64,000 nucleotides of DNA from Chromobacterium sphagni (GTDB taxonomy: Bacteria > Pseudomonadota > Gammaproteobacteria > Burkholderiales > Chromobacteriaceae). This document shows positions 48,141-53,776 of this stretch, piece after piece. Position numbers and translations under genes: made by a program. The stretch's first letter is position 1. Each line of letters starts with the position of its first letter. Below the pieces are notes generated by a model. It saw only the letters and a program-made list of their open reading frames with translations. It did not search any database and was not told the DNA's origin. Location of the stretch: contig NZ_MKCT01000001.1 of assembly GCF_001855555.1 (NCBI RefSeq), positions 930,001-994,000 of the forward strand, given 5' to 3'.

Positions 48141-49178
48141 ATGGAAATTTCCGAGCTCCTGGCTTTTACCGTCAAGAACAAGGCTTCCGACCTGCACTTG
48201 TCGGCGGGCCTGCCGCCGATGATACGGGTGAACGGCGATATCCGCCGCATCAATCTGCCGCCGTTGGACCACCATGACGTGCACGACATGGTGTATGACA
48301 TCATGAACGACTACCAGCGCAAGATCTTCGAAGACGTCTACGAGTGCGACTTTTCGTTCGAGCTGCCCGGCATCGCCCGCTTCCGCGTCAACGCCTTCGT
48401 GCAGAACCGCGGCATGGCCTCGGTGTTCCGGGTGATTCCCAGCAAGGTGCTGTCGCTGGAGCAATTGGCGGCGCCCAAGATCTTCCAGGATATCGCCGGC
48501 TACCCGCGCGGCCTGGTGCTGGTGACCGGTCCCACCGGTTCCGGCAAGTCCACCACGCTGGCGGCGATGATAGACTATGTCAACGAAAACGACTTCTCGC
48601 ACATTCTTACTGTGGAAGATCCGATCGAATTCGTCCACGAAAGCAAGAAAAGCCTGGTCAACCAGCGCGAACTGGGCCTGCAGACCCAAAGCTTCGCCAA
48701 CGCGCTGAAAAGCGCGCTGCGCGAAGACCCCGACGTGATCCTGGTGGGCGAGCTGCGCGATCTGGAAACCATACGGCTGGCGCTGACCGCGGCTGAAACC
48801 GGCCACCTGGTGTTCGGCACGCTGCACACCAGCAGCGCGGCCAAGACCATAGACCGCATCGTCGACGTGTTTCCGGCCGGCGAGAAGGAAATGGTGCGTT
48901 CGATGCTGTCGGAGTCGGTGCGGGCGGTGATTGCCCAGACCCTGCTGAAAACCAAGGACGGCCAGGGCCGGGTGGCGGCGCACGAGATCATGATAGGCAC
49001 GCCGGCGATCCGCAACCTGATCCGCGAAAACAAGATCGCGCAGATCAACTCGATGATACAGACCGGGCAGCAGCACGGCATGCAAACCCTGGACCAGTGT
49101 CTGGCGGATCTGGTCCGGCGCAATATGGTCTCGCCGGGCGAAGCCCGCGCCAAGGCCAGCAACAAAGACTCGTTCTGA
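48141..49178 (+). CDS. pilT: Type IV pilus retraction ATPase PilT
   Basis: A 345-residue hexameric ATPase. The PAS-like N-terminal domain (ISELLAFTVKNKASDLHLSAGLPPMIR) is followed by Walker A GPTGSGKSTT, the Asp box (TVEDPIEFVHES), the Walker B region (DPDVILVGELRD) and the His box (GHLVFGTLHTSS). It powers retraction, twitching motility and DNA uptake. ATG at 48141 with GGAG upstream; the frame to 48069 is not PilT. pilU follows after 95 bases. Confidence 0.97.
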   Translation: MEISELLAFTVKNKASDLHLSAGLPPMIRVNGDIRRINLPPLDHHDVHDMVYDIMNDYQRKIFEDVYECDFSFELPGIARFRVNAFVQNRGMASVFRVIPSKVLSLEQLAAPKIFQDIAGYPRGLVLVTGPTGSGKSTTLAAMIDYVNENDFSHILTVEDPIEFVHESKKSLVNQRELGLQTQSFANALKSALREDPDVILVGELRDLETIRLALTAAETGHLVFGTLHTSSAAKTIDRIVDVFPAGEKEMVRSMLSESVRAVIAQTLLKTKDGQGRVAAHEIMIGTPAIRNLIRENKIAQINSMIQTGQQHGMQTLDQCLADLVRRNMVSPGEARAKASNKDSF

Positions 49179-49273
49179 GCCGCGCTTTTGGCAGAAAGCC
49201 ACGGCTACAATCGCCTGCTGCGCGCGGCGTTAGCAGGCTAGACTGGAAGCAGCCCACGCAGGATTAAGCCGCC

Positions 49274-50410
49274 ATGGAAAAAGACCAGGCATCCAAATTC
49301 ATTCATGATCTGCTGAAGCATGCCATCGGCAAGAATGCCTCCGACATTTTCATTTCCGCCGACTTTCCGCCGGCGATGAAGATAGACGGCAAGATCACCC
49401 CGGTGGCGCCGCAGCCGTTGTCCGCCCAGCAGAGCAAGGAACTGGTGCGCGCCATCATGAACGACCGCCAGACCGAGGAGTTCGAGGGCCGCAAGGAGGC
49501 CAATTTCGCGATCAATCCGCCCGGCGTCGGCCGTTTCCGCGTCAGCGCCTTCGTGCAGCAGGGCACCGTGGGCATGGTGCTGCGCAAGATCAACACCGAC
49601 ATCCCCAACTTCGACCAGCTCACCCTGCCGGAGGTGCTGAAGGACATCGCGCTGATCAAGCGCGGGCTGGTGATCTTCGTCGGCGGCACCGGCTCCGGCA
49701 AGTCCACCTCGCTGGCGGCGCTGGTGGACTGGCGCAACACGAACAACCAGGACCACATCATCACGGTCGAGGACCCGATCGAGTACGTGCACACCCACAA
49801 GAAGTCCATCGTCACCCAGCGCGAGATCGGCGTCGACACCGACAACTGGGAGGTGGCGCTGAAGAACACGCTGCGTCAGGCGCCGGACGTGATCATGATG
49901 GGCGAGATCCGCGACCGTGAAACCATGGCCTACGGCCTGCAGTTCGCCGAAACCGGCCACCTGTGCCTGGCCACGCTGCACGCCAACAACGCCAACCAGG
50001 CGCTGGACCGCATCCTCAACTTCTTTCCGGAGGAGCGCCACCAGCAGGTGCTGATGGATTTGTCGCTGAACATGCGCTCCATCATTTCGCAGCGGCTGGT
50101 GCCGCATAAATCGGGCCGCGGCCGGGTGGCGGCGGTGGAGATCCTGCTCAACAGCCCGCTGGTGTCTGACATGGTGTTCAAGGGCGAGATCGCTGGCCTG
50201 AAGGAAGTGATGTCGCGCTCGCGCGAGGCCGGCATGCAAACCTTCGACCAGTCGCTGTTCGAGCTGTTCGAGGCCGATCTGATCACTTACGAGGACGCGC
50301 TGCGCAACGCCGACTCCATCAACGACCTGCGCTTGAGAATCAAGCTCTACAGCGAAAGCGGCCGCAACCGCGACCCGCTGGAAGGCATCGACCACCTGGA
50401 TATAGTCTGA
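49274..50410 (+). CDS. pilU: PilT-like accessory retraction ATPase PilU
   Basis: A 378-residue PilT paralogue. It has Walker A GGTGSGKSTS, Asp box TVEDPIEYVHTHKKSIV, DVIMMGEIRDRE and the His box GHLCLATLHANNANQ, plus the longer C-terminal tail of PilU (SESGRNRDPLEGIDHLDIV). It supports PilT-dependent retraction. The upstream region carries a 14-base element that recurs before the second receiver-TPR gene. Confidence 0.95.
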   Translation: MEKDQASKFIHDLLKHAIGKNASDIFISADFPPAMKIDGKITPVAPQPLSAQQSKELVRAIMNDRQTEEFEGRKEANFAINPPGVGRFRVSAFVQQGTVGMVLRKINTDIPNFDQLTLPEVLKDIALIKRGLVIFVGGTGSGKSTSLAALVDWRNTNNQDHIITVEDPIEYVHTHKKSIVTQREIGVDTDNWEVALKNTLRQAPDVIMMGEIRDRETMAYGLQFAETGHLCLATLHANNANQALDRILNFFPEERHQQVLMDLSLNMRSIISQRLVPHKSGRGRVAAVEILLNSPLVSDMVFKGEIAGLKEVMSRSREAGMQTFDQSLFELFEADLITYEDALRNADSINDLRLRIKLYSESGRNRDPLEGIDHLDIV

Positions 50411-50434
50411 ACTGGCGCCACGCCATAGCCCATC

Positions 50435-52048
50435 ATGCATTTTGACGCCAATACCACCGTACTCATCATCGAAGATTCCCACACCGTGCGCCAGGGTCTG
50501 CGCACCATGCTGTCCATGGCCGGAGTGACCCGCTCGGAGGCCGTCAGCAACGCCAGCGAGGCGCGCAACCGCCTGCGCGGCAAGCCGTACGACGTCGTGC
50601 TGTGCGACTACAATCTGGGCGAGGGCATGGACGGCCAGGAGCTGCTGGAGGCGATGCGCAAGAGCGGCAACCTGCCGCTGTCCACCATCTGGATCATGAT
50701 CACCGGCGAGCGCCACTACGAAAGAGTGGTGGCCGCCGCCGAAATGGCGCCGGACGACTACATCCTCAAACCGTTCGCCTCGCAGCTGCTGCTGGACCGG
50801 ATGAGCCTGGCCGGCCAGCGCAAGGCTTTCCTCGCGCCGGCGCACAAGCTGCTGTCCGCCGGCAAGGTGGAGCAGGCGATCCAGGTGCTGCAGCAACTGG
50901 CGCGCGAAACCTCCAACGCGCAATACCGGCTGGACGCGCAGCGGCTCGCCGCCGAGCTGCTGGTCAACGAAGGCCGCCAGGGCGAGGCGCTGTCGATCTA
51001 CCAGGAGCTGCTGACCCAGCGGGTGATTCCCTGGGCCAAGATGGGGGTGGCGCGCATCGTCGCCGAGCAGGGCGAGAGCCAGGAGTCCAATGCGCTGCTG
51101 CGAGAGATCATCGCCGACGCGCCGCGCTATACCGACGCCTATGACCTGCTGGCGCAAAACCTGATCGACGAGGGCCAGTACCAGACCGCCGCCATCGTGC
51201 TGGAAAAGGCGGTGGCCATCTCGCCGCGCAACTTCAACCGGCTCAAGAGCTGCGGCACCGCGCTGTTGCGCTGCGGCGACGCCACCAAAGCGGCCGATTA
51301 TCTGCAGCGGGCGGTGGAGGTGGGGCGCAACAACAATTTCTTCGGCCCCGACGTGCTGGTGGACCTGCTGCAGGCTTACAGCGAAAGCGGCCAGACCCAA
51401 CATCTGGACCGGCTGCAGGCGGAAATCTCCAGCCGGATGGACGAGCTGCCCGGCGGCCAACTGACCATGGCGGTGTGCCGCGCGCTGACTGCGCTGGCGC
51501 AGAAGCGCCCCAGCGACGCGCTGGCCCAGCTGCAATCGGTGGCGGAGCACTTGCGCGCGCGGGAAACCGACTTCCCCAGCGCGCAGCGCTTCCTCGCCGC
51601 CGCGGTGCGGCTGACCGCCGAGCAAAGCAATGAGCTGCCGCAGCAGTGGGCGCACAGCATCGCGCTGCGTTTCGCCGACGGCCGCCATGAGCTGGGCACG
51701 CTGCTGGAGATCGCCCACAAGCACGAGGCCTGCCATGGCGCCATCGAAACCGCCTACGACATGCTGCAGACCGAAAGCAACAAGGCGGTGGAACTGGCCA
51801 GCACCGGCAAGCTGGAGGAGGCCGCCGCCATGCTCTACCTGTTGTCGCAGAATACGCTGAACGAACGCATCAGCATGAACGCCTGCGCGCTGCTGCTGCG
51901 CACTTGCGAAAGCCGCAGCAAGGCCGGCCAGCCATATCCCGAGGAGGACCGCCAGGTGCTGAAGCTGATGCACTGGCTGCCGCAGGACAACGAGCGGGTG
52001 CGCGGTTTCATCCGCCGCCATCAGGCGCTGGATCCGGAATGCGAATGA
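50435..52048 (+). CDS. Response regulator with receiver and TPR domains (copy 1)
   Basis: A 537-residue protein. Residues 8-120 form a receiver domain with Glu13-Asp14, phospho-acceptor Asp58 (VVLCDYNLG), Thr90 and Lys112 (DDYILKPF). The remaining about 400 residues are TPR-like helical repeats (IQVLQQLARETSN, GEALSIYQELLTQ, ALLREIIADAPRYTDAYDLLAQNLIDEGQYQTAAIVLEKAV). No DNA-binding or catalytic output domain follows, so the output is protein contact, as in Vibrio VieB-like proteins. It starts 24 bases after pilU and is a full-length paralogue of the next gene. Confidence 0.9.
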   Translation: MHFDANTTVLIIEDSHTVRQGLRTMLSMAGVTRSEAVSNASEARNRLRGKPYDVVLCDYNLGEGMDGQELLEAMRKSGNLPLSTIWIMITGERHYERVVAAAEMAPDDYILKPFASQLLLDRMSLAGQRKAFLAPAHKLLSAGKVEQAIQVLQQLARETSNAQYRLDAQRLAAELLVNEGRQGEALSIYQELLTQRVIPWAKMGVARIVAEQGESQESNALLREIIADAPRYTDAYDLLAQNLIDEGQYQTAAIVLEKAVAISPRNFNRLKSCGTALLRCGDATKAADYLQRAVEVGRNNNFFGPDVLVDLLQAYSESGQTQHLDRLQAEISSRMDELPGGQLTMAVCRALTALAQKRPSDALAQLQSVAEHLRARETDFPSAQRFLAAAVRLTAEQSNELPQQWAHSIALRFADGRHELGTLLEIAHKHEACHGAIETAYDMLQTESNKAVELASTGKLEEAAAMLYLLSQNTLNERISMNACALLLRTCESRSKAGQPYPEEDRQVLKLMHWLPQDNERVRGFIRRHQALDPECE

Positions 52049-52162
52049 GCGCGCCGCCGCGACGCGGCAGGCTAGACTGGTAACAACGCAGGCCGGGGTC
52101 GCCCGGCTGCCGCCATCCAACCCCGCCGCGGCCGCTGGCCGCCGGCCCCCGCGAGGCTGCCC

Positions 52163-53776
52163 ATGGCTTTCAGCGCGAACACCACGGTATTGATCGTCGA
52201 CGATGCGCTGACCATGGCGCAGGGCATCCGCGCCATCCTGGCGATGGCCGGGGTCACCCAGTCGGAAACCGCCAGCCACGCCGGCGAGGCGAGCAACCGG
52301 CTGCGCAGCAAGCGCTTCGACGTGGTGTTGTGCGACTACAACCTGGGCAAGGGCATGAATGGCCAGGAGCTGCTGGAGGCGATGCGCAAGAGCGGCACGC
52401 TGCCCTTGTCGACGCTGTGGGTGATGATCACCGGCGAGCGCAACTACACCCAGGTGGTGAGCGCCGCGGAAATGGTGCCCGACGACTACATCCTCAAGCC
52501 TTTCACCTCGCAGCAGCTGCTGGACCGTCTGGAACTGGCCGTCCAGCGCAAGGCCTTCCTCGCGCCGGCGCACAAGCTGCTGGACAAGGGCAAAACGGAG
52601 CAGGCGATCCAGGCGCTGCAGGAGCTGGCGCAGCAGGCCGACAACCGCCAGAGCCGGCTCGGCGCGCTGCGGCTGCGCGCCGAGCTGATGGTGCGCGAAG
52701 GCCAGTACGAGCAGGCGCTGCGGATTTATCAGGGGCTGCTGGAGCAGGACGAGATTCCCTGGGCCAAGATGGGCGTGGCGCGCATCTTGTCCGAGCAGGG
52801 CGACAGCCCCCAGTCCAACGCGCTGCTGGACGAGGTGATCGCCATCGCGCCGCGCTACACCGAAGCCTACGATCTGCTGGCGCAGAACATGATAGACGAC
52901 GGCGCTTACCAGGAAGCCGCCGCGGTGCTGGAAAAGGCGGTGGGCATCTCGCCGCGCAATTTCACCCGCTTGCACAGTTACGGCAACGCGCTGCTGCGCA
53001 GCGGCGAGGCTGCCAAGGCGGTCGATCAGCTGCAGCGCGCGGTGGACATCGGCCGCCACAACAGCTTCTTCGGTCCGGAAGTGCTGGTCGACCTGATGCA
53101 GGCGCGCAGCGAAAGCGGCCAAATCCAGCAGATGGACCGGCTGCAGAACGAAATTTCCACCCAGCTGGGCAAGCGGCCCGGCGGACAGCTGATGCTGGCG
53201 GTGTGCCGGGCGATGGCCGCGTTGGCGCAGCAGCGGCCGGAGCAGGCGTTGAGCCAGCTGGAGGAAGGAGCGGAATGGCTGCGCGCGGCGGAGACCGACT
53301 TCGACAGCGCCCTGCGCTTTCTGGCGGCGACGGCGCGGTTGCCGTCCGGTCACGGCGCGGAACAGGCGCCGCAATGGGCGCACACTATCGCGCTGCGTTT
53401 CGCCGACGGCCGCCACGAGCTCGGCAGCCTGCAGGAGGCCGCGCGCCAGCATCCGGCCTGCCTGCAGTCGATCAAGACCGCCTACGAGCAGTTGCAGGGC
53501 AAGAGCCAGGCGGCGCTGGAACAGGCCAATCAGGGACAGCTGGAGGCGGCGGCCGACATGCTGCACCGCGACGCGATGGCCACGCTCAACCAGCGGCTGG
53601 GCATGTATGGCTGCGCGATGCTGCTGCGCATCTGCGAAAACCGTCAGCAGGCGCAGCAAGACTATGCCGAGCCATTGCAGGCTTTGCGCCAGCTACTGCA
53701 ATGGTTGCCGCACGACAACGAACGGGTGCACGGCTTCGTCAGGCGGCGGCAGGCGCTGTTGCGCCACCACGAATGA
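52163..53776 (+). CDS. Response regulator with receiver and TPR domains (copy 2)
   Basis: A 537-residue paralogue of the preceding gene, equal in length and colinear throughout, so the pair arose by tandem duplication. The receiver keeps Asp13-Asp14, Asp58 (CDYNLG), Thr90 and Lys112; the acidic pocket is Asp-Asp here against Glu-Asp in copy 1. The TPR part includes ALRIYQGLLEQDEIPWAKMGVARIL, nearly the same as copy 1. Many substitutions between copies suggest different partners. It lies 115 bases after copy 1 and overlaps thpR (ATGA). Confidence 0.9.
   Translation: MAFSANTTVLIVDDALTMAQGIRAILAMAGVTQSETASHAGEASNRLRSKRFDVVLCDYNLGKGMNGQELLEAMRKSGTLPLSTLWVMITGERNYTQVVSAAEMVPDDYILKPFTSQQLLDRLELAVQRKAFLAPAHKLLDKGKTEQAIQALQELAQQADNRQSRLGALRLRAELMVREGQYEQALRIYQGLLEQDEIPWAKMGVARILSEQGDSPQSNALLDEVIAIAPRYTEAYDLLAQNMIDDGAYQEAAAVLEKAVGISPRNFTRLHSYGNALLRSGEAAKAVDQLQRAVDIGRHNSFFGPEVLVDLMQARSESGQIQQMDRLQNEISTQLGKRPGGQLMLAVCRAMAALAQQRPEQALSQLEEGAEWLRAAETDFDSALRFLAATARLPSGHGAEQAPQWAHTIALRFADGRHELGSLQEAARQHPACLQSIKTAYEQLQGKSQAALEQANQGQLEAAADMLHRDAMATLNQRLGMYGCAMLLRICENRQQAQQDYAEPLQALRQLLQWLPHDNERVHGFVRRRQALLRHHE

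Follow-up and report, generated by a model that had tools for sequence, protein, structure and literature searches.

Tandem receiver-TPR proteins encoded behind pilT-pilU in Chromobacterium sphagni: candidate phospho-switched adaptors from an often kinase-paired family

What could two receiver proteins without an output domain be doing directly behind the genes for the retraction ATPases of type IV pili? The question is raised by a stretch of 64,000 nucleotides of Chromobacterium sphagni DNA (contig NZ_MKCT01000001.1, positions 930,001 to 994,000; hereafter the window, to which all coordinates refer unless a locus is named), whose + strand encodes two receiver-tetratricopeptide repeat (REC-TPR) proteins of 537 aa each, RT1 (50435..52048) and RT2 (52163..53776). 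Our preferred, though tentative, reading is that RT1 and RT2 are orphan phospho-switched adaptors that are served by an off-locus kinase and for which the pilus machinery is the likeliest target. An initial annotation of this DNA had placed two proteins of this length behind two twitching ATPases, and both points are borne out. The products of pilT (48141..49178, + strand; start set at MEISELL, matching an Aquitalea relative) and pilU (49274..50410, + strand; 378 aa), whose orthologues adjoin pilT across the genus, match TIGR01420 of the PilT/PilU-family retraction ATPases (E 3.7e-153 and 5.4e-135, respectively). The annotated gap of 24 bp between pilU and RT1 (50411..50434, + strand) was recovered, while that between the two copies (52049-52162) is 114 bp instead of the 115 given.

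The gene is present in 13/19 Chromobacterium genomes and in 10/10 Aquitalea genomes, and in all 23 it lies directly behind pilU, so that linkage to pilU is observed in two genera. A complete RT1-RT2 pair is found in 11 Chromobacterium genomes. G021 has one copy, and in G013 the pair is present but RT1 is divided between two contigs, with pilU ahead of one of the pieces, so that G013 was excluded from the copy comparisons. In the other ten genomes in which both copies are complete, pilU and RT1 are 21-28 bp apart. At the inspected Chromobacterium and Aquitalea loci, with genes named by eye, gene order changes after the RT genes and not between pilU and RT. No + strand terminator-like site was found between 47900 and 54500, including the pilU-RT1 gap, by a simple consensus scan. 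Because of this short gap and the lack of an intervening terminator-like site on that strand, RT1 and RT2 are probably co-transcribed with pilTU and made with PilT and PilU. By eye, in the window and the ten other genomes, a clear Shine-Dalgarno sequence was not seen at the RT1 starts, and GAGG/GAGAGG-like sequences stand at most RT2 starts; translation of RT1 may be coupled to pilU.

The anatomy of RT1 and RT2 is established by their sequences together with a predicted model. A Response_reg domain was recognised in RT1 (E 1.3e-19) and RT2 (E 1.1e-18), with TPR matches behind it, several of them above the Pfam cut-off. The domain search recognised nothing else, in agreement with the annotated receiver, TPR-like body of about 400 residues and absence of an output domain. 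In the AlphaFold2 model of RT1 (pLDDT 90.2, pTM 0.81), a CheY-like receiver (50459..50812, residues 9-126) is followed by a body that is TPR-like to the C-terminal end (50813..52045, residues 127-537), and the last receiver helix, alpha-5, is predicted to pass directly into a single TPR superhelix as one continuous helix (116-141). The phosphorylation pocket is complete in both copies, as annotated, with D58, T90 and K112. Neither D58 nor K112 varies in RT1 or in RT2 among the 11 genomes that have both copies complete (11/11 each), and position 90 is T in 11/11 RT1 proteins and T (9) or S (2) in RT2. An intact-pocket receiver tied by a helix to a protein-binding superhelix is likely to be a design for phosphorylation-dependent partner binding. 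Foldseek with the whole model returned generic TPR superhelices and was uninformative on function, and among the 50 rows listed by VIA-align 49 are receiver domains and 1 is a TPR, with the TPR part hardly probed for closer folds.

RT1 and RT2 align without gaps (348/532 identities, 65%), as befits the colinear, diverged duplicates that had been described. All RT2 proteins form one clade of the protein tree (support 100/100) on a long stem and all RT1 proteins another, with those of Aquitalea outside and the Chromobacterium group supported at 93/91; long branches elsewhere in this tree were flagged. The topology fits a single duplication. The single gene of G021 groups with RT1 (97/91), so that either RT2 was lost there or the gene is misplaced; in the PilT-PilU tree G021 diverges ahead of the two-copy genomes. 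Mean identity among orthologues is 87.5% for RT1 and 75.0% for RT2, and the mean ratio of nonsynonymous to synonymous substitution rates (dN/dS; 55 pairs of 11 genomes) is 0.21 and 0.41, respectively. These ratios demonstrate, at the level of codon comparison, purifying selection on both copies, and because of them chance is not suggested for the gene pair. Aquitalea agrees with RT1 at 12 of 17 fixed differences between the copies, with RT2 at 3 and with neither at 2. By these comparisons RT1 is the ancestral-like copy and RT2 the faster-evolving one.

The derived character of RT2 is seen at positions that are otherwise nearly invariant. With K and R counted as one, 53 positions are kept by no fewer than 53 of 56 relatives, a set to which RT1 and its orthologues belong; these positions were taken as conserved. 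Four of them are replaced in RT2 in 11/11 genomes, namely R19 in alpha-1, E96 and R97 in alpha-4 and, in the TPR part, R196, which immediately precedes the conserved PWA motif. Conserved positions 53, 90, 167 and 282 vary in some RT2 proteins, and 53, 148 and 282 in some RT1 proteins, none of them throughout. A wider set of 177 rows, partly redundant because overlapping loci contribute some genes more than once, lacks K/R196 in its 23 RT2 rows and nowhere else, the 154 non-RT2 rows all having it; at positions 96 and 97 other branches vary as well. Alpha-4 of CheY-like proteins is part of the face that meets their partners. A salt bridge between E96 and R196, acting as an internal latch, was considered and rejected: K/R196 is retained in 18 non-RT2 rows in which E96 or R/K97 is replaced, and covariation therefore does not support the latch.

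RT1 and RT2 belong to a full-length REC-TPR family whose members, of about 540 aa, consist of an N-terminal Response_reg domain and a TPR remainder and are colinear throughout. The annotation had called this architecture rare, which does not hold: relatives were found at E<=1e-45 in 96/300 genomes of the order, the own family (f1) included, and at E<=1e-30 in 27/398 genomes of the phylum, all from the same order or class. Two distant matches were obtained among 72,556 plasmid records. A scan of named genomes confirmed at least 571 places, of which the best 80 were analysed; 77 of these are open frames of 525-562 residues and the other three (L139, L199 and L201) are cut by a contig end or stop and were left out of the alignments, as were 22 of the remaining 77 from alignment A3, to limit its size. 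In A3, the column of the phospho-acceptor D58 holds Glu in 17 of 57 relatives (L152, L153, L156, L163, L193, L203 and 11 more, from Azoarcus, Aromatoleum, Zoogloea, Sapientia and others), and part of the family may for this reason be pseudo-receivers with a built-in acidic residue.

Many of these relatives have a kinase beside them. In four loci (L100:8258-10545, L101:8750-11052, L103:8971-11255 and, on the minus strand, L104:7193-9585), the REC-TPR gene is directly followed by a gene for a 221-243 aa protein with an H[ED].KN box, and a HATPase_c domain was found in the two that were scanned (E 2.8e-11 and 4.4e-10). A model built from these four proteins (cut-off E<=1e-28) matched 73 places in 66/300 genomes of the order. 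For 58 of these 73, one of the 110 REC-TPR places counted outside the own family is on the same strand at no more than 1 kb, with the kinase gene downstream of the REC-TPR gene in 38 cases and upstream in 20. The fraction 58/110 is a lower bound, both cut-offs being strict; the pair of G075, for example, has a weaker REC-TPR match. Among the best 80 named loci, the short kinase is directly downstream in 24, pilTU lies within 5 kb in 8 (Chromobacterium, Aquitalea and one record labelled Xenophilus sp. AP218F) and neither was found in 48. Three genomes of the own family, G042, G043 and G046, do have the short kinase (E<=4e-45), next to distant REC-TPR genes. Chromobacterium (best match 6.9e-15), Aquitalea (1.0e-16) and Vogesella (9.6e-20) give far weaker matches, and in the C. 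sphagni genome the model has no match at E<=1e-28, the best, 5.3e-13, lying in long open frames. The annotation had seen no histidine kinase in the window, and indeed none of the genome's 53 HATPase_c matches falls in it, so that no short HATPase kinase neighbours RT1 or RT2. Since the short kinase stands beside about half of the sampled relatives and was not found in this genome at that cut-off, the pilU-linked branch, and with it the Chromobacterium pair, seems to be an orphan line within a family in which pairing with a kinase is frequent.

Other arrangements were also noted. An HDOD protein is encoded directly behind the REC-TPR gene at L203:6627-8225 (with a GAF match) and, by eye, at L105:11091-12665. 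The C. sphagni genome itself has a third, distant REC-TPR protein of 607 aa (L090:8949-11509, contig C1), about 100 kb before RT1 and RT2, whose gene is flanked by that of a UvrD-like helicase (by eye) and that of a LytTR-type response regulator; the latter overlaps the end of the REC-TPR gene by about 13 bp. Within the window, an open frame of 1473 codons on the minus strand (49238-53659) lies opposite pilU, RT1 and RT2 and is most probably a side effect of GC-rich codon usage in the genes on the + strand.

How might RT1 and RT2 work? With no kinase found in the window, phosphate would have to be supplied from another locus. We propose that a kinase encoded elsewhere would phosphorylate D58 and change the receiver, and that the change would be transmitted via the continuous alpha-5 helix into the partner-binding TPR superhelix. 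The likeliest partners would be parts of the type IV pilus motor, whose retraction ATPases would share a transcript with the RT genes. RT1 would retain the ancestral interface. Because RT2 keeps the chemistry and has lost conserved receiver and TPR residues, it probably takes the same kind of signal to an altered partner or into competition with RT1, and a division of labour between the copies may result. The one PilJ-domain match of the C. sphagni genome is in a NarX-like kinase (by eye), a search that covered neither ChpA nor receptors without a PilJ domain and whose 14 control genomes, of which E. coli alone matched, included none with a known Pil-Chp system; as the domain was seen only in this NarX-like protein, the pili could conceivably receive their input by another route. 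A more elaborate scheme, which we regard as unlikely, is a Pil-Chp-free steering of retraction, in which an ancestral and a rewired phospho-gated TPR adaptor, encoded in tandem and made together with PilT and PilU, would connect the retraction motors with an unlinked kinase and set retraction up or down through opposed interfaces.

Several observations weigh against a function in pilus retraction. The six Chromobacterium genomes without an RT gene (G011, G014, G015, G016, G023 and G024, of 19) keep pilTU, so the ATPases do not need RT; these genomes form one group on the PilT-PilU tree with modest support (82/77), which fits a single loss. Vogesella has one copy in 13/13 genomes and never next to pilU: in seven genomes the two genes are on separate contigs, and in six they share a contig at a distance of 36-67 kb. 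In five of these six (G049, G055, G056, G058 and G060) the distance is 36-38 kb (67 kb in G059), and this recurrent spacing hints at an old neighbourhood that was later broken up. At none of the 22 loci L038-L059 from other families does pilT or pilU lie within the stretch of up to 1.5 kb covered on each side. At 22 inspected loci outside the family (12 and 10 from two inspections, some the same locus twice), the neighbours, named by eye, are a kinase, recG, RNase R/selO-like, secA/aspS-like and HDOD genes, with no pilus genes. Neighbours other than pilT, pilU, the REC-TPR genes and the short kinase were called with a simple picker of open reading frames (ORFs) and, except for a domain-scanned few, named by eye, and some listed ORFs are spurious. 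The genes next to pilT (yggS, proC and yggT by eye) are likewise syntenic, so that the pilU-RT adjacency may be inherited synteny. The single + strand promoter-like site of the region (50442-50469; 9/12 matches, 0.4 expected by chance) lies just inside RT1. Finally, what is seen in the wider family suggests a kinase as partner in preference to a pilus protein. Linkage to pilTU stands for Chromobacterium and Aquitalea and is not supported beyond them at the loci examined, and the annotated phospho-controlled adaptor of pilus retraction keeps its phospho-competent receiver and its linkage in two genera, against a linkage not seen elsewhere and a kinase-leaning wider family.

The main rival follows from that leaning: like VieB of Vibrio cholerae, the type of an inhibitor that binds a kinase and blocks both its autophosphorylation and phosphotransfer, the RT proteins may bind and restrain a histidine kinase of an unrelated pathway, the position behind pilTU being functionless inherited synteny. 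We consider it possible but doubtful. The short kinases adjoining 58/110 relatives and the unlinked Vogesella genes speak for it; the linkage to pilU is, however, maintained across two genera, and at the cut-off used the C. sphagni genome yielded no match to the short kinase. It is quite improbable, in our judgement, that the RT proteins are general scaffolds of another process, such as cyclic di-GMP (c-di-GMP) or envelope signalling, that merely share the pilTU transcript. The diverse contexts of the relatives, some with HDOD, EAL/HDOD-like (by eye) or LytTR neighbours, would suit such scaffolds, but at the inspected loci the genes adjoining the Chromobacterium pair, judged by eye, include none of this kind. 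Very improbably, in our view, RT2 shields RT1 as a sink for phosphate or a decoy, with output from RT1 alone. A kept pocket combined with lost conserved alpha-1, alpha-4 and TPR positions, and a dN/dS about twice that of RT1, would suit this. Yet RT2 is itself under purifying selection, and between species the sequence of its TPR body is conserved (mean identity 76% at residues 127-320 and 70% beyond). We keep the orphan adaptor of the pilus machinery as the preferred reading of the pair.

The REC-TPR family is fairly common and little studied, and RT1 and RT2 may plausibly take part in controlling the pili. Among the open-licence PMC texts listed, judged by titles and the starts of abstracts, no paper on receiver-TPR genes behind pilTU and none naming the pair of short kinase and REC-TPR protein was found; the phrase 'response regulator with TPR' occurs once in a paper on Aeromonas (PMC10272739). 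In Pseudomonas, the coordination of PilT and PilU localisation and activity by Pil-Chp is described as still incompletely understood (PMC12632253). A phospho-switch gene behind pilTU, together with species that keep pilTU without it, makes this coordination question testable by simple deletions. The analysis also highlights a widespread two-gene arrangement of a short kinase and a REC-TPR protein.

VieB resembles RT1 and RT2 in its N-terminal receiver with a conserved, phosphorylatable Asp, the TPR behind it and the lack of a DNA-binding domain (PMC4352251). It differs in sharing an operon with its sensor kinase VieS, whereas no kinase was found in the window, and in a C-terminal half described there as without known homology, whereas the RT1 model is TPR-like to the end; the likeness is one of described architecture (PMC4352251). 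The kinase-paired REC-TPR proteins of L100, L101, L103 and L104 have the same length and receiver pocket, are colinear throughout and are 29-33% identical to RT1. The Chromobacterium/Aquitalea/Vogesella branch is set apart from them by having no such kinase at the strict cut-off and, in Chromobacterium, by duplication and linkage to pilU. PilG and PilH of the Pil-Chp system are not known to have a TPR body. A Pil-Chp regulator is a receiver without a further domain, and the TPR body of about 400 residues places RT1 and RT2 outside that class. PilG and PilH are nevertheless CheY-like receivers that act on type IV pili (PMC12632253), as proposed for RT1 and RT2, but they belong to a chemosensory system with PilJ and ChpA, and in the C. 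sphagni genome the PilJ-domain search gave no match outside the NarX-like kinase. The TPR proteins RcbA and RcbB were set aside, the word receiver being absent from the text (PMC12282931). SgmX of Myxococcus, a TPR protein important for the polar placement of PilB, acts on type IV pili by way of a motor ATPase, as proposed here, although its partner is the GTPase MglA and not a receiver (PMC7519303). EmvR of Xanthomonas is, like RT1 and RT2, an orphan receiver; it binds the pilus ATPase PilB and interacts with ColS, a kinase of another two-component system, but it is a single-domain receiver without TPR and its target is PilB (PMC11973254). Because EmvR interacts with ColS of another system, an off-locus source of phosphate such as that proposed for RT1 and RT2 has a precedent (PMC11973254).

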